Shown here: positions 7,803 to 21,000 of the stretch, piece after piece
How positions within the stretch are numbered: the first letter of the stretch is position 1
Layout: every line of letters starts with the position of its first letter
Assembly: GCA_030949385.1 (NCBI GenBank)
Contig: JAUZSP010000006.1
Span: forward strand, 190,121-254,120
Source of the DNA: Gammaproteobacteria bacterium
GTDB taxonomy: Bacteria > Pseudomonadota > Gammaproteobacteria > JAUZRS01
DNA: 64,000 bases
Direction of reading: 5' to 3'
Program-made: the position numbers and the translations under genes
Notes under the pieces: model-generated
The model's input: the letters and a program-made list of their open reading frames with translations, nothing else
What the model was told of the DNA's origin: nothing
Database searches by the model: none

Positions 7803-8201
7803 TTATTCGGTTTGGTTTAAGTGAGTCGCTGATGCGTGTTTCGATAGTTTTTTATCAAAGGTGTAGAGGCTGCATTGTTTTTCTTGATTTTTAGTTAAAA
7901 TCAGTGCGTCGGAAAACTCAAAAGCATGGCTTCGATACGTCTCTAAAGCGTTTTCAAGCGTATTTTTATCATCGAATACGAGGGTGCTTTGTAACAACAA
8001 ACGCTCTATGGTTGAGATGATTTGAGGTTTTTTAATACTGTAAGCACGCTGTATGACCCAAATTGTCTCGATCAACACGGTGTCGGTGATGAGGGTTTTT
8101 TCATGCTTTAACAACAGTGACCGAGCTTGTTCACACTGTTTTTTTGCTTTGTGATCGTCAATCAATACGCGAACTAAGACGTTGGTGTCAATGCCGATCA
8201 T
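7803..8201 (-). CDS. vapC: PIN-domain toxin, VapC family
   Basis: A 132-residue ribonuclease toxin. PIN hallmarks are visible: the first acidic residue in MIGIDTNVLVRVL, the conserved Glu in TDTVLIETIWV, the Asp of FEFSDALIL and the last acidic residue in LYTFDKKL. Such toxins cleave RNA, often initiator tRNA or rRNA, unless bound by their antitoxin. The start overlaps the upstream antitoxin stop by four bases (ATGA), the usual translationally coupled arrangement. The ATP-grasp gene follows 15 bp downstream on the same strand and may be read from the same transcript. Confidence 0.88.
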   Translation of the reverse strand: MIGIDTNVLVRVLIDDHKAKKQCEQARSLLLKHEKTLITDTVLIETIWVIQRAYSIKKPQIISTIERLLLQSTLVFDDKNTLENALETYRSHAFEFSDALILTKNQEKQCSLYTFDKKLSKHASATHLNQTE

Positions 8202-8428
8202 TTGAGCATTACCTGTGCGATGGCTTCTTCAATTTCATTCAAAGAGACCGCTTTATCGCTCTTAATGATGCCAAATAGGCTGCTGATGTCGTTGCACAGC
8301 GGTTCGGCAATGATTTTATTGTCTTGCAAGGTAAAGACGATGCGATCCCCTGTTTTTAAATTTAATTGCTTACGAATGGAGGCTGGTAGGGTTACTTGCC
8401 CTTTGCTGGTTAGGTTGGATGTCTGCAT
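8198..8428 (-). CDS. vapB: AbrB/MazE-type antitoxin, VapB
   Basis: A 76-residue antitoxin with an N-terminal swapped-hairpin DNA-binding domain (TSKGQVTLPASIRKQLNLKT) and a C-terminal tail that would mask the toxin. The ATG at 8428 is preceded by AAAGGT; longer in-frame versions to 8491 would cross the operator and lack conservation. It is the first gene of the pair with the toxin at 7803-8201. An inverted repeat directly upstream suggests autoregulation by the antitoxin-toxin complex. Confidence 0.87.
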   Translation of the reverse strand: MQTSNLTSKGQVTLPASIRKQLNLKTGDRIVFTLQDNKIIAEPLCNDISSLFGIIKSDKAVSLNEIEEAIAQVMLK

Positions 8429-8432
8429 TTTT

Positions 8433-8458
8433 GTATTACCTTTTGATTTTTGTAATAC
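8433..8458. promoter_or_regulatory. Inverted-repeat operator of the vapBC pair
   Basis: GTATTAC (8433-8439) and GTAATAC (8452-8458) are exact inverted repeats with a 12-bp A/T-rich spacer, immediately upstream of the antitoxin start. AbrB-type antitoxins typically bind such repeats to repress their own operon. Confidence 0.6.
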
Positions 8459-8494
8459 CAATGAGTATAGAGGGTAGGGGGAGAATGTCAATGT

Positions 8495-8583: not shown

Positions 8584-11310
8584 GTGGAAGATTATTATCG
8601 TTATTGGGGCAAGGCGGGGCGACAAAAAGAGGGGCAATCATTGGATTACCACCTGTTGCCTTATCACTGTCTGGATGTGGCTGCGGTGGGTGAGGTGCTA
8701 CTAAACCAGCAGCCTCGTTTGCGTAGGTTGTTGGCACGTTTGTGTGGTTTGGATGAAGTGGTGTTTCAGCAGTGGATGATCTTTTTTTTGGTGTTGCACG
8801 ATCTGGGAAAATTTACCGATAGTTTTCAGCAGCTTCGAACGGATGTGCAAAAAAAATTACAGGGGCGAGAAGGCGCGGAAGCCTCTATGCGTCACGACAG
8901 CTTGGGGTTTTTATTGTGGAGTGCAGAGCTGGGTGTGAGGGCGCACTTGCAAGAGAGCTGGGGGCTGCCTGCTAAGCGGCGTAGAGCAGCCAAAGAAGAT
9001 GGCTTGGATCATTGGGTGAGAGCGGTGACGGGTCATCATGGCCAGCCACCTAAAGAGGATTTTGGTGGCTTAAGAAATTATACGGGCGAGGATGATTTGC
9101 CTGCGGTGAAACAATTTGTTGGGGCGATAATTGAATTATTATTGCCTGATAAACCTGTATTACCTGATGCGAAAAAAATTAAAACAGCGGCGTGGTGGTT
9201 GAGTGGTTTTACCGTTCTGTGTGATTGGCTAGGGTCGAATGCAGAGGTTTTTTGCTATAAAACAGACCTTGTTCCTTTGATGGATTATTGGCGAAATACG
9301 GCGTTACCACGGGCTGATAACGTCGTTCAGTTGGCGGAATTAACTCCGTCACATTGCGATACTGAATTAAATTTAACGCGTTTGTTCGGTGCGTATATGG
9401 ATTCACCTACTCCGTTGCAGCAGCAAGCGGTTGAGTGTGAGATAGGATCAGAGCCTCAGCTGTTTATTTTGGAAGATGTAACTGGCAGTGGTAAAACGGA
9501 AGCGGCCTTGATTTTATCACAGCGTTTGATGGCGGCAAATTTGGCCAATGGACTCTATTTTGCCCTGCCGACAATGGCCACATCTAATGCCATGTACGAC
9601 CGCTTGGGTGCGGTGTATCGAAAATTGTATCAAGCAGAAGGAGCGAAACCTTCTTTGGTTTTGTCACATGGGGCGCGGCAGCTATCGGAGGCGTTTCGCA
9701 GCAGTTATTTACCGACCTTTGCAGCGTCATCAGCACGTTACGGTGATGACACTGTACCGGCAGATCTGCATTGCAGCGCGTGGTTGGCAGACAGTCGTAA
9801 AAAATCCCTGTTGGCTCAGGTGGGCGTTGGCACCATTGACCAAGCGTTATTGGCGATTTTACCGGCTCGGCATCAATCTCTGCGCTTGTTGGGTTTGTTG
9901 GATAAGGTGCTGTTGGTGGATGAGGTTCATGCGTGTGACAGTTACATGCACCGTCTTTTATGCCATCTATTGACGGTACATGCACAAGCGGGAGGATCGG
10001 CTATTTTACTTTCGGCTACTTTGCCTTTTAAACAGCGTGAAGAGTTGCTGACCGCCTATGCAAAAGGCCGTGATGGTGATCCTGTTCAGTTGCAACAACA
10101 AGGTTTGAATGATTACCCCCTCTTGAGTCACTGGAGCCGCGCAGGGTTGAGTGAGCAGGTCGTTGAGAGTCGCCCCAGTGTCAGTCGTTTTGTGACGGTT
10201 GATTTTGTCCATCAAAGTGAGTCTGTGGTTTCTCTGTTGCAGTCAGTGGTTGAAAAAGGTCAATGCGCGTGTTGGATACGCAACACCGTTAAGGATGCGC
10301 TGAAGAGTTTTTCTGAATTGAAAGAGGCGCATCCAGAATGGAATATTGTGCTGTTTCATGCTCGTTTTAGTTTGTCGGATCGTTTGAGAATTGAGCAAGA
10401 GGTGGTGAAGCGGTTTGGTAAACAGGGGGATGCTGCTGGGCGGCGTGGTGCTGTTTTGATTGCGACACAGGTGGTGGAGCAGTCATTGGATCTGGATTTT
10501 GATGTTCTGGTTACAGATTTGGCTCCGGTGGATCTATTAATTCAGAGGGCGGGGCGTTTGCAGCGTCACAGCCGTGATCTTCAAGGGCGGTTGGTTGAGA
10601 CAGAAGATCAGCGTGGAGGGGCGGTGTTGACGGTGTACAGTCCTGAAGTGACGGCTGATCCCAATGCGGATTGGTTTCGTGATTTTTTCCCAAGGGCGCA
10701 AAAGGTCTATGAAGATCATGCTCAGCTTTGGCTCACTGCGCGTTTATTGCAGCAACGTGGTGGGTTTGATATGCCGGAAGATGCACGTTTGTTGATTGAG
10801 GGCGTTTACGGCGTTGAGGCGGAGGATCAATTGCCTGAGAGTTTATTGAGCAATTGTTTTCAAGCGCAGGGTGTCGCAAAAGGGCGCAGCAGTGTGGCAA
10901 AAGAAAATGCTCTGAACATTGAGTTAGGCTATTGTTTTGATAGTAGTTTTAATTGGTGGGAGGAGGCGGTTACGCCAACTCGTTTGGCGGATGAGGAAAG
11001 TATGACGACCTATTTAGCGCGCTGGGAGGGGGGCTGTTTACACGCGTGGGCGGCAGATCAGGCGGCGTTTCAGTGGGATTACAGTGCGGTTCAGTTGCGT
11101 ACATCTCTGCTGGTGGAGACCTTTTTGCCAAAAGAAGTCACCGAATCTCAATATGAAGCGATACAGCAACAGTTACCGGCTCAGGGTAAGTGGAGCTTGC
11201 TTATGGTGCTGGAACAGCAGGGTGATATCTGGGTCGGATGTGGCAAAAATGCCAAGGGAGAAACGGTGCGTTTATTGTGTGACAGGGGGCAAGGGGTGCG
11301 TGTCGAATAA
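8584..11310 (+). CDS. cas3: CRISPR-associated helicase-nuclease Cas3 (type I-E)
   Basis: Recruited by Cascade to nick, unwind and degrade target DNA. The 908-residue protein has an N-terminal HD nuclease (His28, then HDLGKF at 72-77, and ...TGHHGQ further on). An SF2 helicase follows: Walker A VTGSGKTEAAL near 300, DEVH near 445, SATLP near 476, ATQVVEQSLDLDFD near 630 and QRAGRLQRH near 655. A C-terminal Cas3 domain ends the protein. The start is GTG 8584 with GGAG seven bases upstream. It is separated from the Cascade operon by 282 bp that hold a predicted regulatory RNA and the cse1 promoter, so cas3 is transcribed independently. Confidence 0.96.
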   Translation: MEDYYRYWGKAGRQKEGQSLDYHLLPYHCLDVAAVGEVLLNQQPRLRRLLARLCGLDEVVFQQWMIFFLVLHDLGKFTDSFQQLRTDVQKKLQGREGAEASMRHDSLGFLLWSAELGVRAHLQESWGLPAKRRRAAKEDGLDHWVRAVTGHHGQPPKEDFGGLRNYTGEDDLPAVKQFVGAIIELLLPDKPVLPDAKKIKTAAWWLSGFTVLCDWLGSNAEVFCYKTDLVPLMDYWRNTALPRADNVVQLAELTPSHCDTELNLTRLFGAYMDSPTPLQQQAVECEIGSEPQLFILEDVTGSGKTEAALILSQRLMAANLANGLYFALPTMATSNAMYDRLGAVYRKLYQAEGAKPSLVLSHGARQLSEAFRSSYLPTFAASSARYGDDTVPADLHCSAWLADSRKKSLLAQVGVGTIDQALLAILPARHQSLRLLGLLDKVLLVDEVHACDSYMHRLLCHLLTVHAQAGGSAILLSATLPFKQREELLTAYAKGRDGDPVQLQQQGLNDYPLLSHWSRAGLSEQVVESRPSVSRFVTVDFVHQSESVVSLLQSVVEKGQCACWIRNTVKDALKSFSELKEAHPEWNIVLFHARFSLSDRLRIEQEVVKRFGKQGDAAGRRGAVLIATQVVEQSLDLDFDVLVTDLAPVDLLIQRAGRLQRHSRDLQGRLVETEDQRGGAVLTVYSPEVTADPNADWFRDFFPRAQKVYEDHAQLWLTARLLQQRGGFDMPEDARLLIEGVYGVEAEDQLPESLLSNCFQAQGVAKGRSSVAKENALNIELGYCFDSSFNWWEEAVTPTRLADEESMTTYLARWEGGCLHAWAADQAAFQWDYSAVQLRTSLLVETFLPKEVTESQYEAIQQQLPAQGKWSLLMVLEQQGDIWVGCGKNAKGETVRLLCDRGQGVRVE

Positions 11311-11346
11311 AAAAGAAGGCGGTGTTGGCTTTTCCGACACCGCTTC
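11309..11346 (-). terminator. Intrinsic terminator of the CreR-like RNA (also downstream of cas3)
   Basis: Minus strand: GAAGCGGTGTCGG, loop AAAAG, CCAACACCGCCTTC, then TTTTTT, which overlaps the cas3 stop codon. The U-run is on the minus-strand side; in the plus direction only TTCTTG follows, so it best serves the minus-strand transcript. Confidence 0.75.
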
Positions 11347-11420
11347 TTGCCCTAAAACGTTAGGGAACGGGGCGTTAATCAACGACTAACACGGTTGATC
11401 CCACAGGCGTGTGGGAACGT
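11309..11420 (-). ncRNA. CreR-like Cas-regulating RNA: two degenerate CRISPR repeats flanking a 21-nt pseudo-spacer
   Basis: Minus strand, 5' to 3'. Pseudo-repeat 1 (11392-11420, 29 nt) begins ACGTTCCC, has hairpin CCCACA-CGCC-TGTGGG and ends ATCAACCG; it matches the array repeat at 18 of 29 positions, including eight-base 5'-handle ATTAACCG except one base. Pseudo-spacer (11371-11391, 21 nt) starts TGTTAGTCGTTGATTA. Pseudo-repeat 2 (11342-11370, 29 nt) starts CCGTTCCC with hairpin CCCTAA-CGTT-TTAGGG. Both hairpins occupy repeat positions 6-21, as in the real repeat, with compensating stem changes. A GC-rich stem (11315-11346) and TTTTTT (11309-11314) terminate it. A weak -10, TACACT, is at 11425-11430. 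Cas6e cleavage would give a short crRNA-like guide. Transcription is not shown. Confidence 0.8.
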
Positions 11421-11475
11421 GTGCAGTGTATCAGCTCGGTTTTCAAATCCCAGCCCCTTTCTTATTTCCCCTCCA

Positions 11476-11522
11476 TTGTCTTGCTTTTCACTTCGGCATA
11501 AAATAATTAACGATTAACACTT
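11476..11522 (+). promoter_or_regulatory. Predicted promoter of the cse1 operon with embedded Cascade target site
   Basis: The -35 TTGTCT (11476-11481) and -10 TAAAAT (11499-11504) are separated by 17 nt, giving a start near 11511. Over the -10 and start lies a protospacer-like site (11499-11519, minus strand TGTTAATCGTTAATTA...). It pairs with the pseudo-spacer of the neighbouring CreR-like RNA. Its 5' flank on the minus strand is AAG (11520-11522), a standard type I-E PAM. Of the first 16 positions 14 match; the mismatches are at 6 and 12. Positions 17-21 do not match. Binding here would block transcription initiation, and the short pairing would not be expected to license cleavage. Confidence 0.7.
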
Positions 11523-11592
11523 AATTTTTTGTTGATCTTTTCTTTTTCTGGGAGTACAGTTCATCTGTCTTTGAGATTAAGAGGGAAATCGG

Positions 11593-13192
11593 ATGAGTTT
11601 CAATTTACTGCAAGAGCCATTTTTAGCGGTGCGCTGTCTGGATGGAAGATTAAAAAAAATCCCTGTATGGCAGATCTCTGATCCCGATGTGTTGGCTTTG
11701 GCATCGCCTCGGGCTGATTTTAATGCGGCTTTGGTGCAATTTATCTTGGGTCTGTTGCAGACGGCGTTTGCGCCAAAAGATGAAGATGAGTGGTTGGATT
11801 TTTTTGCTGACCCCACCGACCCCTGAGACGCTTCAGTCTCACTTTCAAAAACATGAAAAGGCGTTTGAACTGCTGGGAGAGCAGCCCTGTTTTATGCAAG
11901 ATTTTGAATCTCAATTGGAGGGTGGGGCTAAGCCCATTGCGGCTCTGTTGATTGAAACGCCAGGTGAAAATACGCTGAAACAAAATACAGATCACTTTAT
12001 TAAACGCGGTCAAGCTGCGGCGCTTTGCCCCTGTTGTGCGGCCACGGCCTTATTTACTCTGCAAACCAATGCGCCAAGTGGGGGGGCGGGGCATCGTACG
12101 TCACTGCGGGGCGGGGGGCCGTTGACCACTTTGGTCTGTGCCGATCCCATTGTGGACGATGAGGACACGCCGCCTTCTTTATGGCGAGATCTTTGGTTGA
12201 ATGTTCTGCTGCGTTCCGAATTAGAGAGCAGCAGCGGCAATGCTTCACTGACGGCAGAGAGTGCGACTTTTCCGTGGTTGGCGGCAACGCGCAGCAGTGA
12301 AAAAAGCGGTGTGGATACGACACCGGAAGATGTGCATCCATTGCAGATGTATTGGGGGATGCCGCGCCGGATTCGACTGCTGGAAAGTGATTTGCCTGCG
12401 GCGGAGTGTGCTGTGTGCGGCGAGGTCAGTGATTCACTAATAGAGCAATTTATGACGCGAAACTATGGGGTGAATTACAGCGGTGCTTGGCGGCACCCAC
12501 TTTCACCTCACTACAGTGACAAACAGGGTATGCCGCTGTGTGAGCATCCACAGCCCGGTGGCTTTCCGTACCGATATTGGCTTACTTTTTCTCAAGATAA
12601 TAAAGACGAGAATCGTTCTGCTGCCACGATTGTTCAGCGTTACAACAAGAGAAAAATAAAAGAAGCGCAGTTGCGTTTGTGGGTCTTTGGTTATGACATG
12701 GACAACATGAAAGCGCGCTGCTGGCATGAAGGTTATTTTCCACTCTATATCATTGATGATGCTGAAAGGCGTACCTGTTTTATTGATGAAGTTAGAGCCA
12801 TGTTGTTGGGAGCCAAAGAGGTTGAGGGGTATGTCCGAAGCTGCATTAAGGAGGCGTGGTTTAAGCGTCCAAAAGATCATAAGGGGGATGTGAGTTTTTT
12901 AACTGCGACCTTTTATCAGCGCAGTGAAGCGGCATTTTATCGACAGTTGGCGGCGCTGAGTACGGTGGCCGAGAACAAAGAGCAGTGCCGAGATTTAATG
13001 GAGCTCTGGTATCAGAAATTGAGTTTGGATGCGCGTGCGCTGTTTGATGAGCAGGTGGTAAGGGGGGGGGTTGTATTTTCTGATCCACAGCGCATCAGTG
13101 CAGCGCATAAAAAATTATCTGGGTTATTACGTGGTAAAAAAATAAGGGCTGTTTTAAATATGGCCCCTTTAAATAAAAGGAGCGCAACATGA
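11593..13192 (+). pseudogene. casA: Cascade large subunit Cse1/CasA (Cas8e), apparent +1 frameshift
   Basis: Cse1 recognises the PAM and recruits Cas3. The first frame (11593-11826) reads MSFNLLQEPFLAVRCLDGRL... and stops at TGA 11824. The next frame (+1) continues to 13192 with FMQDFE, CPCC, GGAGHRTSLRGGGPLTTL and CAVCGEV, all typical of the family. Removing one T from the seven-T run at 11799-11805 gives a seamless WLDF-LLTPPTPETLQ junction and a 532-residue protein, close to the usual 500-550. An alternative slip at CCC TGA (11821) is less natural. The cause may be a real mutation, polymerase slippage on the T run, or an assembly error. The start has GAGGGA upstream. Its stop overlaps cse2 by ATGA. 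Confidence 0.88.
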
Positions 13193-13686
13193 AAATTGAA
13201 TTTTCCGCTGAAAGTGAATTAGGTCAGGCGATGCACGCATGGTGGTTGTCGCTGGAGTCGGATAACGGTGGACGGGCGGAATTGCGGCGGGCGAAGACGT
13301 TGACGACGGTAATTGTCTCTCCCTGTTTTCAACGACTTTATGGGCAAGTTAGACCCTTATTGAGCTCCGCTCGGGGGGATTGGCCGAGTCGTCTGGCCAT
13401 GATTGCGGTGGTCTTGGCGCATGTGAAGCAGGCCGATAATAAGGAGATTGCGATGCAGTTGGCCAGCCCTAAAGCGGGGGGGAGCAACGCTCGTTTGAGT
13501 AATTTACGCTTTCGTCGTCTGCTGCAACGCAGCCGTGATGATGTGTGGTTGGCGCTGGTGCGGGTGTTGCCGATGTTGGATCGAAAAGCCAATATTTTTG
13601 ATTTGGCTAACAGTCTTTTTTATTGGGGAGATAAAGTAAAGCAGCGATGGGCGTACGCTTATTTTGCTAAAGCGTCTGTCAAATAA
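13189..13686 (+). CDS. casB: Cascade small subunit Cse2/CasB (Cas11e)
   Basis: A 165-residue, helical, basic protein that forms the dimeric belly of type I-E Cascade and stabilises the R-loop. Family features are visible: an N-terminal WWLSLESDNGGRAELRRAK stretch, then RLAMIAVVLAHVK, and the conserved C-terminal SNLRFRRLLQRSRDD and RWAYAYF segments. It overlaps the cse1 stop by four bases (ATGA), so it is translationally coupled to it. A 56-bp T-rich gap separates it from cas7e. Confidence 0.93.
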   Translation: MKIEFSAESELGQAMHAWWLSLESDNGGRAELRRAKTLTTVIVSPCFQRLYGQVRPLLSSARGDWPSRLAMIAVVLAHVKQADNKEIAMQLASPKAGGSNARLSNLRFRRLLQRSRDDVWLALVRVLPMLDRKANIFDLANSLFYWGDKVKQRWAYAYFAKASVK

Positions 13687-13742
13687 AGCGAAGGTTGATG
13701 TGTTTTTTCTCTTTTTTATTTTGTTGTTAGGAGTGGTATTTT

Positions 13743-14846
13743 ATGAGCCGTTTTATTCAGTTGCATCTTTTAACCTCTTATCCACCTGCGAATTTAAACC
13801 GTGATGATTTGGGTCGGCCAAAAACCGCAGTGATGGGCGGAGCGCCGCGTTTACGGGTCTCTTCACAGAGTTTGAAGCGCGCATGGCGAACCTCAGATCT
13901 GTTTCAAGAGGCGATGAATGGCCATGTGGGAACACGCACCAAGTCAATGGGGGGTGAGATTTTTAACCGCTTTATTGAGGCTGAGGTAAAAGAGAAGCAG
14001 GCGTTTGAGTGGGCAAAATCAATTGCTGAGCCGTTTGGTAAATTAAAAGTGGATAAGGATCTGGCGAAAAAATTAAAAGAATCGAATGCATCCGATGAGG
14101 AGCGTTTGAAGCTCTATCGAGAAAATGTGCAGATTGAGCAGTTAATGCACTTCAGTGTTGAGGAGCGAGCGGCCATTGATGATCTGGTGGCGGTGGTGAT
14201 TGAGCGTCAAGAGGCTCCCACAGAAGACGAATTGAAACTGTTGCGTAAGGATCATACGGCGGTGGATATTGCGCTGTTTGGGCGCATGTTGGCTTCCTCT
14301 CCGAGCTTTAATACCGAAGCAGCGGCACAAGTTGCTCACGCCATTTCGGTGCATAAAGTTATGGTGGAGGATGATTTTTTTACCGCAGTGGATGATCTGA
14401 ACAGCGGTAATGAAGATATGGGTGCGGGTCACATGGGGGAGACGGAGTTTGCCGCTGGTCTGTTTTATCTCTACCTCTGTATTGATTACAGTTTGCTGGT
14501 GGATAATTTAGGCGGCGATGAGACGTTGGCCAAGAATGCTCTGGCGGCGTTGATTGAGTCGGCGGCAACGGTGGCTCCGACGGGAAAACAGAACAGTTTT
14601 GCTTCTCGGGCGCGGGCTTCGTATCTGTTGTGTGAGGCGGGGAATCAGCAACCGCGTTCGCTGTCGGTGGCGTTTTTAAAACCGGTCTGGGGTGCGGATC
14701 TGTTGGGCGATTCAATCAAGGCCTTGGAGAGCTGTTATGAAAATATGGATCGGGCTTATGGGGCGTGTGCGGATCGTCGAGTGGCGGTGAATGTGGTGCA
14801 GGGTGAGGGGACGTTGGCTGAGTTGATCGCGTGTGCCACGGAGTAA
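13743..14846 (+). CDS. casC: Cascade backbone subunit Cas7e/CasC (Cse4)
   Basis: Forms the backbone that coats the crRNA spacer and kinks it every sixth base. The 367-residue protein starts MSRFIQLHLLTSYPPANLNR and has the family sequence GRPKTAVMGGAPRLRVSSQSLKR within the first 50 residues. The C-terminal region includes PTGKQNSFASRA. Length equals the family norm (about 350-370). GGAG precedes the ATG. cas5e follows directly. Confidence 0.96.
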   Translation: MSRFIQLHLLTSYPPANLNRDDLGRPKTAVMGGAPRLRVSSQSLKRAWRTSDLFQEAMNGHVGTRTKSMGGEIFNRFIEAEVKEKQAFEWAKSIAEPFGKLKVDKDLAKKLKESNASDEERLKLYRENVQIEQLMHFSVEERAAIDDLVAVVIERQEAPTEDELKLLRKDHTAVDIALFGRMLASSPSFNTEAAAQVAHAISVHKVMVEDDFFTAVDDLNSGNEDMGAGHMGETEFAAGLFYLYLCIDYSLLVDNLGGDETLAKNALAALIESAATVAPTGKQNSFASRARASYLLCEAGNQQPRSLSVAFLKPVWGADLLGDSIKALESCYENMDRAYGACADRRVAVNVVQGEGTLAELIACATE

Positions 14847-14849
14847 GTG

Positions 14850-15581
14850 ATGATGAGATCGTATCTGTTGGTTCGATTGTATGGGGCGATGGCCTCGTGG
14901 GGTGAACATGCCGTTGGTGGACCGCGCTTATCGGCAGGCCGTCCGACGAAATCAGCGGTGGTGGGTTTGTTGGCCGCTGCTTTGGGGGTGCATCGTGCAG
15001 AAGAAAAAGCGTTGTTGGCGTTGCAGCGGGGGTACGGTTTTGCCGTGAGAGTGGAAGCCGCTGGGGAGTTGTTGCGGGATTATCACACCACACAAGTGCC
15101 GTCGGCGCAGGAAAAGGTGGTTTACGCCACTCGTCGTGAGGAGTTGCAGAAGACTGAGAAGAAGAAAATCAATACGATTTTGTCACAACGGGATTATCAT
15201 CTTGATGCGTGTTACAGCGTTGCTTTTTGGTCTCGTGAGTCAGCGCCATACGATTTGAGTGTGTTGCAAGAGGCGCTGTGCGAGCCGAAATTTGCGCTCT
15301 ATTTGGGGCGTAAATCCTGTCCTTTTGGCTTGCCGATAGAGGCTCAGGTGGTGAGTTCGGAGAGTTTAAAAGCCGCTTTCGATGGTGTTGAGTGGCGAGG
15401 GGATGCCTTTCTTAAGGCGTTGCCTCGGGGCAAGGTGTCTCATTATTGGGAGGATCTGAATCCGCAACAGGCGGGCATGTCGGCGGATCTGCAATTGATT
15501 CGTGGTGATGAATTGGTCAGCCGTAAGCGGTGGCAGTTTTCTAATCGTCAGGAGTTTCAGCATTTGGGAGGAGAAGAGTGA
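14850..15581 (+). CDS. casD: Cascade subunit Cas5e/CasD
   Basis: Binds the 5' handle of the crRNA and contacts Cse1. About 243 residues, beginning MRSYLLVRLYGAMASWGEHA followed by GGPRLSAGRPTKSAVVGLLAAAL, the conserved N-terminal glycine-rich fold of Cas5e. Three candidate starts are consecutive (GTG 14847, ATG 14850, ATG 14853); ATG 14850 has the best distance from GGAG at 14840. The gene begins right after the cas7e stop and ends in TGATG shared with cas6e. Confidence 0.94.
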   Translation: MMRSYLLVRLYGAMASWGEHAVGGPRLSAGRPTKSAVVGLLAAALGVHRAEEKALLALQRGYGFAVRVEAAGELLRDYHTTQVPSAQEKVVYATRREELQKTEKKKINTILSQRDYHLDACYSVAFWSRESAPYDLSVLQEALCEPKFALYLGRKSCPFGLPIEAQVVSSESLKAAFDGVEWRGDAFLKALPRGKVSHYWEDLNPQQAGMSADLQLIRGDELVSRKRWQFSNRQEFQHLGGEE

Positions 15582-16252
15582 TGCATTATTTTAGTCGGAT
15601 TCGGTTGCGACCTGACCTTTCTCATCATCAGTTGGCTCAGTGGGCGTTGGCGGATCGGTATCGTGAGCATCAATTGGTGTGGCGGTTTTTCTCTGCTGAA
15701 ATGGAAAAACGCGCTTTTCTGTATCATCGAGATCAATCGGCAGAGACGGCTTGTTATTATTTATTGTCCGAAGATCGGCCACAGGATGAGGCGGGTGTTT
15801 GGCAGATTGAGAGCCGTCCTTATAAGCCGGTGTTGCATGTGGGGCAGCGGTTGTCTTTTCGCTTGCGGGTGAATCCGGTGGTAACGCGCCGCGATGAAAA
15901 GGGGCGGCATTGTCGGCATGATGTGGTGATGAACGCCAAACATGAGTTGAAGCGTCAAGCTGTGCCTAAAGATCAGTGGCCAAGTATGGCGCAGTTGTGC
16001 CAGCAAGAGGGGGCTAGATGGTTGCAAAGACGAGCGGAAAAACAGGGCTTTTCTTGTGAGTCAGGTGAGATGCTGGTGGAGGGCTACGATCAACAGCGTT
16101 TGGATAAAAAGCGTGGGATTAGGTTTAGTACCTTGGATTTGAGCGGGGTGTTGACGGTGACGCAGGTGGATGACTTTTTGCAAACCCTGTATCAGGGTTT
16201 GGGGTCAGCAAAGGGGTTTGGTTGTGGCCTGTTGTTGGTAAAACCCCTGTAG
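15581..16252 (+). CDS. casE: CRISPR RNA endonuclease Cas6e/CasE
   Basis: Cleaves the repeat hairpin on its 3' side to release crRNAs with an eight-base 5' handle, and stays in Cascade. The 223-residue protein starts MHYFSRIRLRPDLSHHQLA and ends with the glycine-rich RNA-binding loop GLGSAKGFGCGLLLVKPL, diagnostic for Cas6. Start ATG 15581 overlaps the cas5e stop by one base and has GGGAGGAG upstream. It is the last gene before the array, and the same enzyme would be expected to process the CreR-like RNA at 11309-11420. Confidence 0.95.
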   Translation: MHYFSRIRLRPDLSHHQLAQWALADRYREHQLVWRFFSAEMEKRAFLYHRDQSAETACYYLLSEDRPQDEAGVWQIESRPYKPVLHVGQRLSFRLRVNPVVTRRDEKGRHCRHDVVMNAKHELKRQAVPKDQWPSMAQLCQQEGARWLQRRAEKQGFSCESGEMLVEGYDQQRLDKKRGIRFSTLDLSGVLTVTQVDDFLQTLYQGLGSAKGFGCGLLLVKPL

Positions 16253-16350: not shown

Positions 16351-19300
16351 GTGTTCCCCACAGTCGTGGGGATTAACCGTACAGGCTAATCCTCACGCTG
16401 AGACTATAGAACTGTGTTCCCCACAGTCGTGGGGATTGCCCAGCGTAGCCCGGTATCCGACGGTGCAGTGTTCCCCACAGTCGTGGGGATTAACCGCTCG
16501 CCTCACCAGTACTGCTTGGTCTTTGGTGTTCCCCACAGTCGTGGGGATTAACCGACAATCCCAATCCGAACCTATACGAAACTGTCTGAGTGTTCCCCAC
16601 AGTCGTGGGGATTAACCGGTAGTTCGGGCGTGGGTGTGAAGGTTTCGATGGTGTTCCCCACAGTCGTGGGGATTAACCGGCCAGCAGGCATACCATGCTC
16701 ATACTCCTGCGGTGTTCCCCACAGTCGTGGGGATTAACCCTTTCTCAGCCACCACGACCCACTCCTCATCCTGTGTTCCCCACAGTCGTGGGGATTAACC
16801 GGATGCAGTGACTCGTGTGATTTAATTACCTCAGTGTTCCCCACAGTCGTGGGGATTAACCGTGCTGATAGGGTTCTGATTTTATCCGGGTTACGTGTTC
16901 CCCACAGTCGTGGGGATTAACCGCCATTTATGCAGTTGGTGGGGTATTGGTGGTGGTGTTCCCCACAGTCGTGGGGATTAACCGACGCTTGTAATTGCAG
17001 TAACCCTCTGAAATCTGTGTTCCCCACAGTCGTGGGGATTAACCGGTAGTTCAGGAGTGGGGGTAAAGGTTGCGATGGTGTTCCCCACAGTCGTGGGGAT
17101 TAACCGGAGCTGCCCATTGATCGTGATTGTCATTGTGTAGTGTTCCCCACAGTCGTGGGGATTAACCGCGATGATGATCAGTGACCGATTCGTCACTCCT
17201 GTGTTCCCCACAGTCGTGGGGATTAACCGCCGACTCTGAATAAAATGCGCTTGGTGAGTTTGTGTTCCCCACAGTCGTGGGGATTAACCGCCTGGAGAGG
17301 CGCGCATCTGCCGGGATCATGCGTGTTCCCCACAGTCGTGGGGATTAACCGTTTAATAAGCTTTTGCTCTCTATTTCAGCCAAGTGTTCCCCACAGTCGT
17401 GGGGATTAACCGATCAGAAATAACAGGGAATACCATCGCCTTTCGTGTTCCCCACAGTCGTGGGGATTAACCGAAATGACTGAAAATAAATTTGATTAGT
17501 AATTTGTGTTCCCCACAGTCGTGGGGATTAACCGCTGTTGTTTTGGTCCCTGAGTCGGATGATGAGGTGTTCCCCACAGTCGTGGGGATTAACCGCCACT
17601 GCCAATCAATTGGCGCTTGCTAGAAAAGTGTTCCCCACAGTCGTGGGGATTAACCGGCCCTCTGAAATTATTAGCGCGATAATCGACCGTGTTCCCCACA
17701 GTCGTGGGGATTAACCGGGATGGATGATTCTCAAATCACTGGGGCTGCGGTGTTCCCCACAGTCGTGGGGATTAACCGGCGCTATCAAGAGCGCCTAAAC
17801 TATGCAGAATGTGTTCCCCACAGTCGTGGGGATTAACCGTATGCAGTTTTGTTGAATTTGGCGTTAGGCGGGTGTTCCCCACAGTCGTGGGGATTAACCG
17901 GATGGTTTAACAGGCCGAAGTTTCTGGGTGTTGTGTTCCCCACAGTCGTGGGGATTAACCGTGCTCTATCTACTGCCTTTTCTGCCATAAATGGTGTTCC
18001 CCACAGTCGTGGGGATTAACCGTGTATTTGGTGGGCACCAACAAGGCGAAAGATGTGTTCCCCACAGTCGTGGGGATTAACCGTGCTCTATCTACTGCCT
18101 TTTCTGCCATAAATGGTGTTCCCCACAGTCGTGGGGATTAACCGTGTATTTGGTGGGCACCAACAAGGCGAAAGATGTGTTCCCCACAGTCGTGGGGATT
18201 AACCGGTAAAGGTCATCGGCTAGTTCTGACTTTAGTAGTGTTCCCCACAGTCGTGGGGATTAACCGGCCAATTGCTAAAATCCATTTTTCGCCATCCTGT
18301 GTTCCCCACAGTCGTGGGGATTAACCGATGAGAAATTCAGCAGGCCAACGCCTGCCGTAGTGTTCCCCACAGTCGTGGGGATTAACCGCTGTCCAACCGT
18401 TATTTAAATTAGACACGCGAGGTGTTCCCCACAGTCGTGGGGATTAACCGAACTGCCTTGACGTTCGATGTAATCGCGCTGCGTGTTCCCCACAGTCGTG
18501 GGGATTAACCGTAACATGACCATGAACGGCGTTAATTAACTGCGTGTTCCCCACAGTCGTGGGGATTAACCGGCACGTCGATGCCATAATTGTTTTATCG
18601 CTGTGTGTTCCCCACAGTCGTGGGGATTAACCGTAGCAGAACAGGGAAAAATCACATCCACAGTCGTGTTCCCCACAGTCGTGGGGATTAACCGTTCTTG
18701 CAGCGTATTAAGGGCAGAGGGTGCTGGTGTTCCCCACAGTCGTGGGGATTAACCGTTTCTATCTCAAACATGTATCTGATCCTGTTTGTGTTCCCCACAG
18801 TCGTGGGGATTAACCGATCATCCAATGGAGAGCCACGGCTAATAGCGGGTGTTCCCCACAGTCGTGGGGATTAACCGCAGAACAGGTTTGACCGCCTCTA
18901 AAATATCCTCGTGTTCCCCACAGTCGTGGGGATTAACCGGCACGTCGATGCCATAATTGTTTTATCGCTGTGTGTTCCCCACAGTCGTGGGGATTAACCG
19001 ACACAACAATATTTGTGGCCGGGGAACTAATAGTGTTCCCCACAGTCGTGGGGATTAACCGAACAGGCGCTAGGTAAGCTAAAAGCCTACACAGTGTTCC
19101 CCACAGTCGTGGGGATTAACCGTTTCCCGGCGGAAAAAACCGAGTAATTCATTTGTGTTCCCCACAGTCGTGGGGATTAACCGCAGGTCGCCGTCCCGCT
19201 CAATCATTTTTTATCAGTGTTCCCCACAGTCGTGGGGATTAACCGCCCGGCAGGCATACCTTTCTCAAACTCCTGAGGTGTTCCCCACAGTCGTGGGGAT

Positions 19301-19677
19301 TAACCGTCAACACGAAGAACCAGATCAGACAAGGTCAAGTGTTCCCCACAGTCGTGGGGATTAACCGCTGTCGTGGGGGTAGGTTTGGGGTTGGTGGGGA
19401 GTGTTCCCCACAGTCGTGGGGATTAACCGTTAAAGGTCTGGCTATTATGGCCGGTGTCGGTGTGTTCCCCACAGTCGTGGGGATTAACCGCACTGATTTA
19501 GACACAGCAGTAAAAGTGGAAAGTGTTCCCCACAGTTGTGGGGATTAACCGCTGCCTGCGACGATGTTGGGCATTCCGAATAAGTGTTCCCCACGACCGT
19601 GGGGATTAACCGACCCTCTATCTATAAAATGGCCGCTAATCGCACCAAGTGTTCCCCACGACCGTGGGGATTATCGT
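16351..19677 (+). CRISPR. Type I-E CRISPR array, 55 repeats and 54 spacers
   Basis: The 29-bp repeat begins GTGTTCCCCACAGTCGTGGG and ends GGATTAACCG; the hairpin is CCCCAC-AGTC-GTGGGG. Spacers are mostly 32 bp (61-bp period). I counted 55 repeat starts from 16351 to 19649. Irregular units occur near the leader: repeat starts 16351, 16414, 16468, 16526, 16590, and the second repeat loses its AACCG end. Trailer-end repeats degenerate: 19523 has GTTG, 19584 and 19649 have loop GACC, and the last is truncated (GGGGATTATCG). Spacers 17962-17993/18084-18115, 18023-18054/18145-18176 and 18573-18604/18940-18971 are identical pairs. The array is transcribed on the plus strand, and cas1 and cas2 lie beyond its trailer. 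Confidence 0.99.

Positions 19678-19817: not shown

Positions 19818-21000
<1,183 letters not shown>

Follow-up and report, generated by a model that had tools for sequence, protein, structure and literature searches.

A probable CreR element upstream of cse1 and the comparative footprint of guide-target pairing in type I-E CRISPR-Cas loci of proteobacteria

Cas-regulating RNAs (CreRs) were described by Liu et al. (2023, Cell Host Microbe, doi 10.1016/j.chom.2023.08.005, as cited in PMC12737573, PMC13131331 and PMC12948488). As summarized in reviews, they mediate autorepression in CRISPR-Cas types I-B, I-E and V-A through partial complementarity to a promoter, and this repression is relieved by crRNA abundance and by anti-CRISPRs (PMC13131331, PMC12737573). 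Cascade binding is satisfied by an AAG PAM and about 5 bp of pairing, interference needs more than 18 bp, and the type I-E complex flips out bases at every sixth position (PMC5904413). A 2018 study in E. coli found off-target Cascade sites to be without transcriptional effect and deliberate promoter targeting to be repressive (PMC5904413). In type I-B, strong repression without interference is seen with spacers of 21-24 nt, and weak repression with spacers of 20 nt (PMC10989794).

The window analysed here, a 64-kb stretch of gammaproteobacterial DNA taken in full, contains a type I-E locus whose components are listed in Table 1. The four leader-end spacers of its array (16351-16580) measure 34, 25, 29 and 35 nt, nearly all others being 32 or 33 nt; the second repeat in this region carries three mismatches, and two spacer-repeat units at 17932-18175 are tandemly duplicated with 100% identity. 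Beside cas3, on the minus strand (7803-8491), lie two small ORFs that, as judged from their translation, resemble a PIN-domain toxin and an AbrB-like antitoxin of the VapBC type.

Table 1. Coordinates of the cas genes, the mini-CRISPR and its target site in the window.
Feature	Position	Strand	Basis or remark
cas3 (HD nuclease-helicase), upstream of the mini-CRISPR	8584-11310	+	NCBIfam cas3 models, E 2e-152
Intrinsic terminator predicted for the CreR RNA, stem GAAGCGGTGTCGG/CCAACACCGCCTTC and T run overlapping the cas3 stop codon	11309-11346	-	fold
psi-R2 (second degenerate repeat) CCGTTCCCTAACGTTTTAGGGCAAGAAGC	11342-11370	-	6-bp stem, 4-nt loop
Pseudo-spacer (guide), 21 nt, TGTTAGTCGTTGATTAACGCC	11371-11391	-	array spacers 32-33 nt
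psi-R1 (first degenerate repeat) ACGTTCCCACACGCCTGTGGGATCAACCG	11392-11420	-	compared with array repeat
Extended -10-like element TGATACACT, from which the CreR RNA is predicted to start	11425-11433	-	read from the sequence; 4 nt upstream of psi-R1
Predicted cse1 promoter TTGTCT-17-TAAAAT	11476-11504	+	sole promoter-like site found in 11250-11650
Protospacer paired by guide positions 1-16	11504-11519	-	mismatches at 6 and 12
PAM AAG (plus strand CTT)	11520-11522	-	5' of protospacer
cse1/cas8e	11593-13189	+	TIGR02547 matches in two frames
cse2, cas7, cas5e, cas6e (remaining Cascade operon)	13189-16252	+	NCBIfam
CRISPR array with 55 copies of the repeat GTGTTCCCCACAGTCGTGGGGATTAACCG, supplying the competing crRNAs	16351-19677	+	repeat comparison
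cas1e and cas2e	19818-20999	+	NCBIfam

Between cas3 and cse1, about 5 kb from the array, the minus strand holds a mini-CRISPR of two repeats and one spacer (11342-11420), which reads as psi-R1, pseudo-spacer and psi-R2; beyond psi-R2 there is a strong hairpin, then a T run where cas3 has its stop codon. Compared with the array repeat, psi-R1 is identical at seven of the eight handle positions, and its stem is complete, with three of the six pairs altered on both sides; in psi-R2 the six pairs are likewise intact, two of them altered on both sides, and the 3' handle is lost. The putative Cas6e stem is hence maintained through compensated changes in both repeats, and the handle missing from psi-R2 is one that a CreR RNA would not need. 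On sequence grounds alone, stems and handle are compatible with Cas6 processing and Cascade loading. The element is bracketed by predicted expression signals, a promoter-like and a terminator-like sequence. Elements resembling the former occur upstream of psi-R1 in 73% of the CreR loci identified below, against 25.5% of shuffles, and the latter folds with -16.1 kcal/mol (z -4.2). Searching 11200-11700 with Rfam covariance models gave no hit at an E-value of 1 or below.

Both the pseudo-spacer (TGTTAGTCGTTGATTA) and its target site (TGTTAATCGTTAATTA) were verified in place. A preliminary description of this locus had proposed that the guide pairs beside an AAG PAM with mismatches only at positions 6 and 12, leaving positions 17-21 unpaired, and the comparison agrees with it on every point: 14 of 16 bases are identical, the mismatches fall exactly at 6 and 12, and positions 17-21 are unmatched. 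Searches with the guide-target pattern AAGTGTTANTCGTTNATTA allowing up to three mismatches returned only the target (0 mismatches) and the pseudo-spacer itself (2) in the 64-kb window, and one extra site, with 2 mismatches, in the whole 2.87-Mb genome when up to two were allowed. A second target was detected neither at cas3 nor in any other part of the window, whether with up to three mismatches or with a shorter seed and one mismatch. For a random guide of the same composition, the chance expectation of an AAG followed by identity at all 14 non-flipped positions within the 282-bp intergenic region is 1.2e-7, and 2.1e-5 with any PAM.

The target site had further been described as spanning 11499-11522 and covering the -10 element and start of the cse1 promoter. 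The overlap with the predicted promoter stands: its -10, TAAAAT, occupies 11499-11504 and is touched by the protospacer proper, which starts at 11504. The promoter is nonetheless a consensus match, a prediction also as to its exact place, and the sister genome considered below does not retain the -10. The anatomy of the element, with psi-R1, pseudo-spacer, psi-R2 and a partial match flanked by a PAM, is shared with CreTA modules, in which an 11-bp seed match is used (PMC10989794), and the RNA could accordingly repress the promoter of a small toxin gene located at the target, cse1 being a mere neighbour. We regard this as very unlikely, given that no toxin gene was seen in the 70 bp separating the target from the start of cse1, where there is neither an ATG nor an obvious small ORF, and that the target lies directly upstream of cse1 in other loci too.

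A total of 147 type I-E loci were surveyed, comprising a main set of 124 usable loci, obtained through a Cas7-alignment scan of genome contigs and cse1-family searches of whole genomes, and a held-out set of 23. Detection relied on a guide that comes directly after a repeat-handle-like sequence and matches elsewhere in the same cse1-upstream region, with every sixth position ignored. Scores of at least 12 were obtained for 20 of the 124 main-set loci, compared with 11 of 980 cross-locus pairings in which guides were tried on the regions of other loci. Among the 20 are the window's sister locus and L120, which was detected through a palindrome match, its true guide lying elsewhere. Ignoring phase 6 yielded these 20 loci, and ignoring other phases yielded 3 to 5. 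The AAG PAM was present in 16 of the 21 loci scoring at least 11. After inspection we kept 22 loci, adding L032, L046, L062 and the true L120 pair and omitting the sister.

In these 22 loci, guide and target match with frequencies of 1.0, 1.0, 1.0, 1.0 and 0.95 at positions 1-5, of 1.0, 1.0, 0.95, 0.86 and 0.86 at positions 7-11, and of 0.91, 0.82, 0.86 and 0.77 at positions 13-16. The frequency drops to 0.23 and 0.32 at positions 6 and 12, respectively, and to 0.59 at position 17, and is near chance thereafter. Detection left positions 6, 12 and 18 unused, so that the selection of loci does not account for their neutrality. Matches at 6 and 12 number 12 of 44, which is the neutral rate and is what the flipping of every sixth base, on which the preliminary description had drawn, would lead one to expect. 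Active selection for mismatches at these positions was considered and rejected on the same count and on that of the held-out loci (5 of 16). The conservation profile hence reads as the footprint of type I-E Cascade.

The held-out set, which stems from another proteobacterial order, behaved similarly: seven of its 23 loci scored at least 12 at phase 6, against one or two at other phases, and eight were kept after inspection. In the order of L129, L147, L150, L161, L155, L152, L149 and L158, the CreR-like elements lie mostly on the plus strand, unlike those of the Gammaproteobacteria, which indicates that the strand is not fixed. Altogether, about 30 loci share the layout with unrelated guides, and each of these guides fits the cse1-upstream region of its own locus, in most cases next to an AAG. 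Independent drift of guide and promoter in homologous loci, the outcome that the preliminary description had named as refuting its proposal, is thus not what either set shows.

In ten loci (L037, L011, L036, L062, L046, L006, L066, L108, L101 and L078) no more than about 40 nt separate psi-R1 from the target upstream of it, and Cascade bound there would cover the CreR promoter as well; CreR may in these loci repress both the cas operon and itself. The corresponding gap in the window is about 83 nt.

The same comparison bears on two readings that dispense with a guide acting on its target. The site is AT-rich and partly palindromic, and the two matching sequences could be operators of a DNA-binding regulator, formed by a partial inverted repeat (TTAA-TCG-TTAA). 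An operator duplication was rejected, and we deem it scarcely credible, on the grounds that the sequences are unrelated between loci under a constant architecture, with a repeat handle invariably preceding one copy and an AAG preceding most of the partners; it also leaves the 6-nt periodicity of the mismatches unexplained. Alternatively, the RNA might serve mainly as a decoy occupying Cas proteins, with promoter binding being secondary. Any crRNA-like RNA will load Cas proteins, and the solitary repeat units of phages (Racrs) inhibit in this manner (PMC10651486). A guide match would be superfluous for such a decoy, yet strong, position-specific constraint acts on the match of each guide to its own promoter, making this possibility close to negligible.

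A search of the order and family of the window returned a single other genome (G001), belonging to the same genus; one of the surveyed loci, from a Gammaproteobacteria MAG (L035, isolate 12ROV5_HD12-AMOR20_M1286), has the same sequence. Between the window and this sister genome there are zero changes over about 100 nt encompassing psi-R1, the guide and most of psi-R2, the flanks being about 95% identical, and the protospacer and PAM are preserved as well. The predicted -10 of cse1 is changed, and the terminator arms have diverged with a long stem still present. The change in the -10, with guide, target and PAM kept, indicates that the guide-target pair is better conserved than the consensus promoter match. 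Within the window, a run of seven T (11799-11805) has one T too many and disrupts the cse1 frame near 11799-11826; cse1 is intact in the sister genome. A homopolymer assembly error is the likelier cause; a genuine frameshift would leave this strain with no active Cascade and no working circuit.

A closely related pair in the main set is also informative. The cse1 genes of L011 and L062 are about 91% identical and their guides (CTTAGCTCAACCGCAAAAAGA and TAAAACCCATTTGTTTCTGGG) are unrelated, each guide fitting its own upstream site adjoining an AAG. Judged by sequence comparison, this pair represents the guide-target covariation among relatives that had been put forward as a check. Three close relatives of the CreR-bearing L006 (L005, L008 and L010) showed no CreR in the alignment.

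These data also speak to the nature of the mini-CRISPR itself. Degenerate repeats and a short spacer are what one would see in a decayed mini-array, or in a solo repeat left by recombination, that resembles the promoter by chance and has no function. Compensated stems, a chance expectation on the order of 1e-7, the roughly 100 nt left unchanged in the sister genome and the 30 or so loci with the same layout and different sequences all argue against decay, and on the last two of these it was rejected as extremely unlikely.

Taken together, the evidence leads us to read the element as a type I-E CreR operating the circuit set out here, with a probability of about 0.88. A minus-strand transcript would start from the extended -10 promoter, run through psi-R1, the 21-nt guide and psi-R2, and end at the terminator at the 3' end of cas3. 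Cas6e cleavage after each of the kept stems would release an RNA of about 50 nt, consisting of an 8-nt handle, the guide and a 3' hairpin. Cascade loaded with this RNA would settle on the AAG-flanked site at 11504-11522, over the predicted -10 and start of cse1, and block RNA polymerase. Pairing ends at about 16-17 bases, which would leave Cas3 unlicensed and the chromosome uncut. The 21-nt guide fits repression without interference, since type I-B spacers of 21-24 nt behave in this way (PMC10989794). Plentiful array crRNAs, or a disabled Cascade, would reduce the amount of guide-loaded Cascade and raise cse1-cas6e expression, as suggested by published work on CreR. While anatomy, match, conservation and covariation are directly observed, transcription, Cas6e processing, loading, repression and relief by crRNAs are what we infer from them. 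The autoregulatory circuit advanced in the preliminary description is hence well supported by locus-specific guide-target pairs and by conservation in the sister genome, but it is not new, as it corresponds to CreR. The interest lies in the comparative footprint and, should they be confirmed, in the length and hairpin patterns of the guides.

Two further features of the guides may be new: their lengths, which go in steps of about 6 nt, and an over-representation of hairpins within the guide. Guides measure 20-22 nt in 10 of the 22 main-set loci, the window included, and 31-34 nt in the other 12, with that of L032 taken as about 32 nt on assumption, its second stem not having been found. The held-out guides, read from the sequences, measure 21, 21, 26, 32, 32, 32, 32 and 34 nt, and 1705 of 1709 array spacers in the same collection measure 32-33 nt. 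Length classes are scattered across the cse1 tree, with at least five changes forced by supported branches. The number of Cas7 subunits follows crRNA length (PMC6828817), and steps of about 6 nt would fit the loss of one or two of them.

The guide of the window can form a 9-bp self-hairpin (-8.1 kcal/mol, P 0.002), part of whose stem is supplied by its differences from the target at positions 12 and 17-20; the protospacer does not fold. Over the 22 loci, guide folding has a mean z of -1.37, against -0.10 for 813 array spacers, and hairpins at free positions are in excess (P 2e-8), a trend first spotted by eye in six of these loci. The excess persists when those six are left out (P 0.003, n=16) and was not replicated in the eight held-out loci (mean z -0.35, P 0.21). 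The guide hairpin is for these reasons a lead only, having been noticed by eye on loci that were then tested and having failed to replicate in the held-out set. It is conceivable, though doubtful, that CreR guides are weak Cascade ligands, shortened by whole Cas7 steps (20-22, 26 and 31-34 nt) and with the seed hidden by a hairpin built from the unpaired positions 6, 12 and beyond 16, so that array crRNAs outcompete them and repression reports crRNA scarcity. Should both patterns hold, hairpins and guide lengths, they would account for a sensor that is set to lose against real crRNAs.

Sequence comparison thus points to repeated recruitment of type I-E Cascade in proteobacteria for the regulation of its own operon. 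The approximately 30 natural guide-target pairs provide an evolutionary readout of how Cascade reads its target, with positions 1-5, 7-11 and 13-16 held, each sixth base neutral and positions beyond 17 irrelevant. The footprint yields a simple rule for finding CreR elements, and the crRNA-sensing model is testable in cultured hosts; Leucothrix pacifica (L038), Sedimenticola hydrogenitrophicus (L046) and Saccharophagus sp. K07 (L108) are cultured and carry an element of this kind.

Several described systems resemble parts of this arrangement. The scaRNA of Francisella novicida Cas9, as outlined in PMC9458426, is also an RNA with a degenerate repeat that directs a Cas effector, through about 15 bp of complementarity, to repress transcription, but it acts with Cas9 on lipoprotein genes and not with Cascade on cse1. 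SpyCas9 autorepression (Workman et al., as reported in PMC13131331) similarly has an effector repress its own operon, with relief by anti-CRISPRs; it belongs to type II, uses another guide RNA and, in that account, operates without a mini-CRISPR. The Racr RNA-based anti-CRISPRs (PMC10651486) share a repeat-like RNA that is loaded by Cas proteins. They are solitary phage repeats that inhibit immunity, whereas the element reported here is of the host and presents two repeats and a spacer with a promoter-matching guide, inside a chromosomal cas locus and not on a mobile element. Closer is the CreA antitoxin of the CreTA modules of type I-B haloarchaea (PMC9458426), in which psi-R1 and psi-R2 also flank a pseudo-spacer with a partial seed match at a promoter; there, however, the target is a toxin gene and the repeat hairpin was not found to be conserved, whereas here the target is cse1, no toxin is seen and both stems are kept. 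Closest are the CreRs as portrayed in reviews, and no feature of this locus speaks against placing it among them. It combines a predicted crRNA-like RNA, a mini-CRISPR near the cas genes and outside the array, a PAM-flanked partial complementarity to a predicted cas promoter without a toxin, and a guide and target that have been kept together in evolution.
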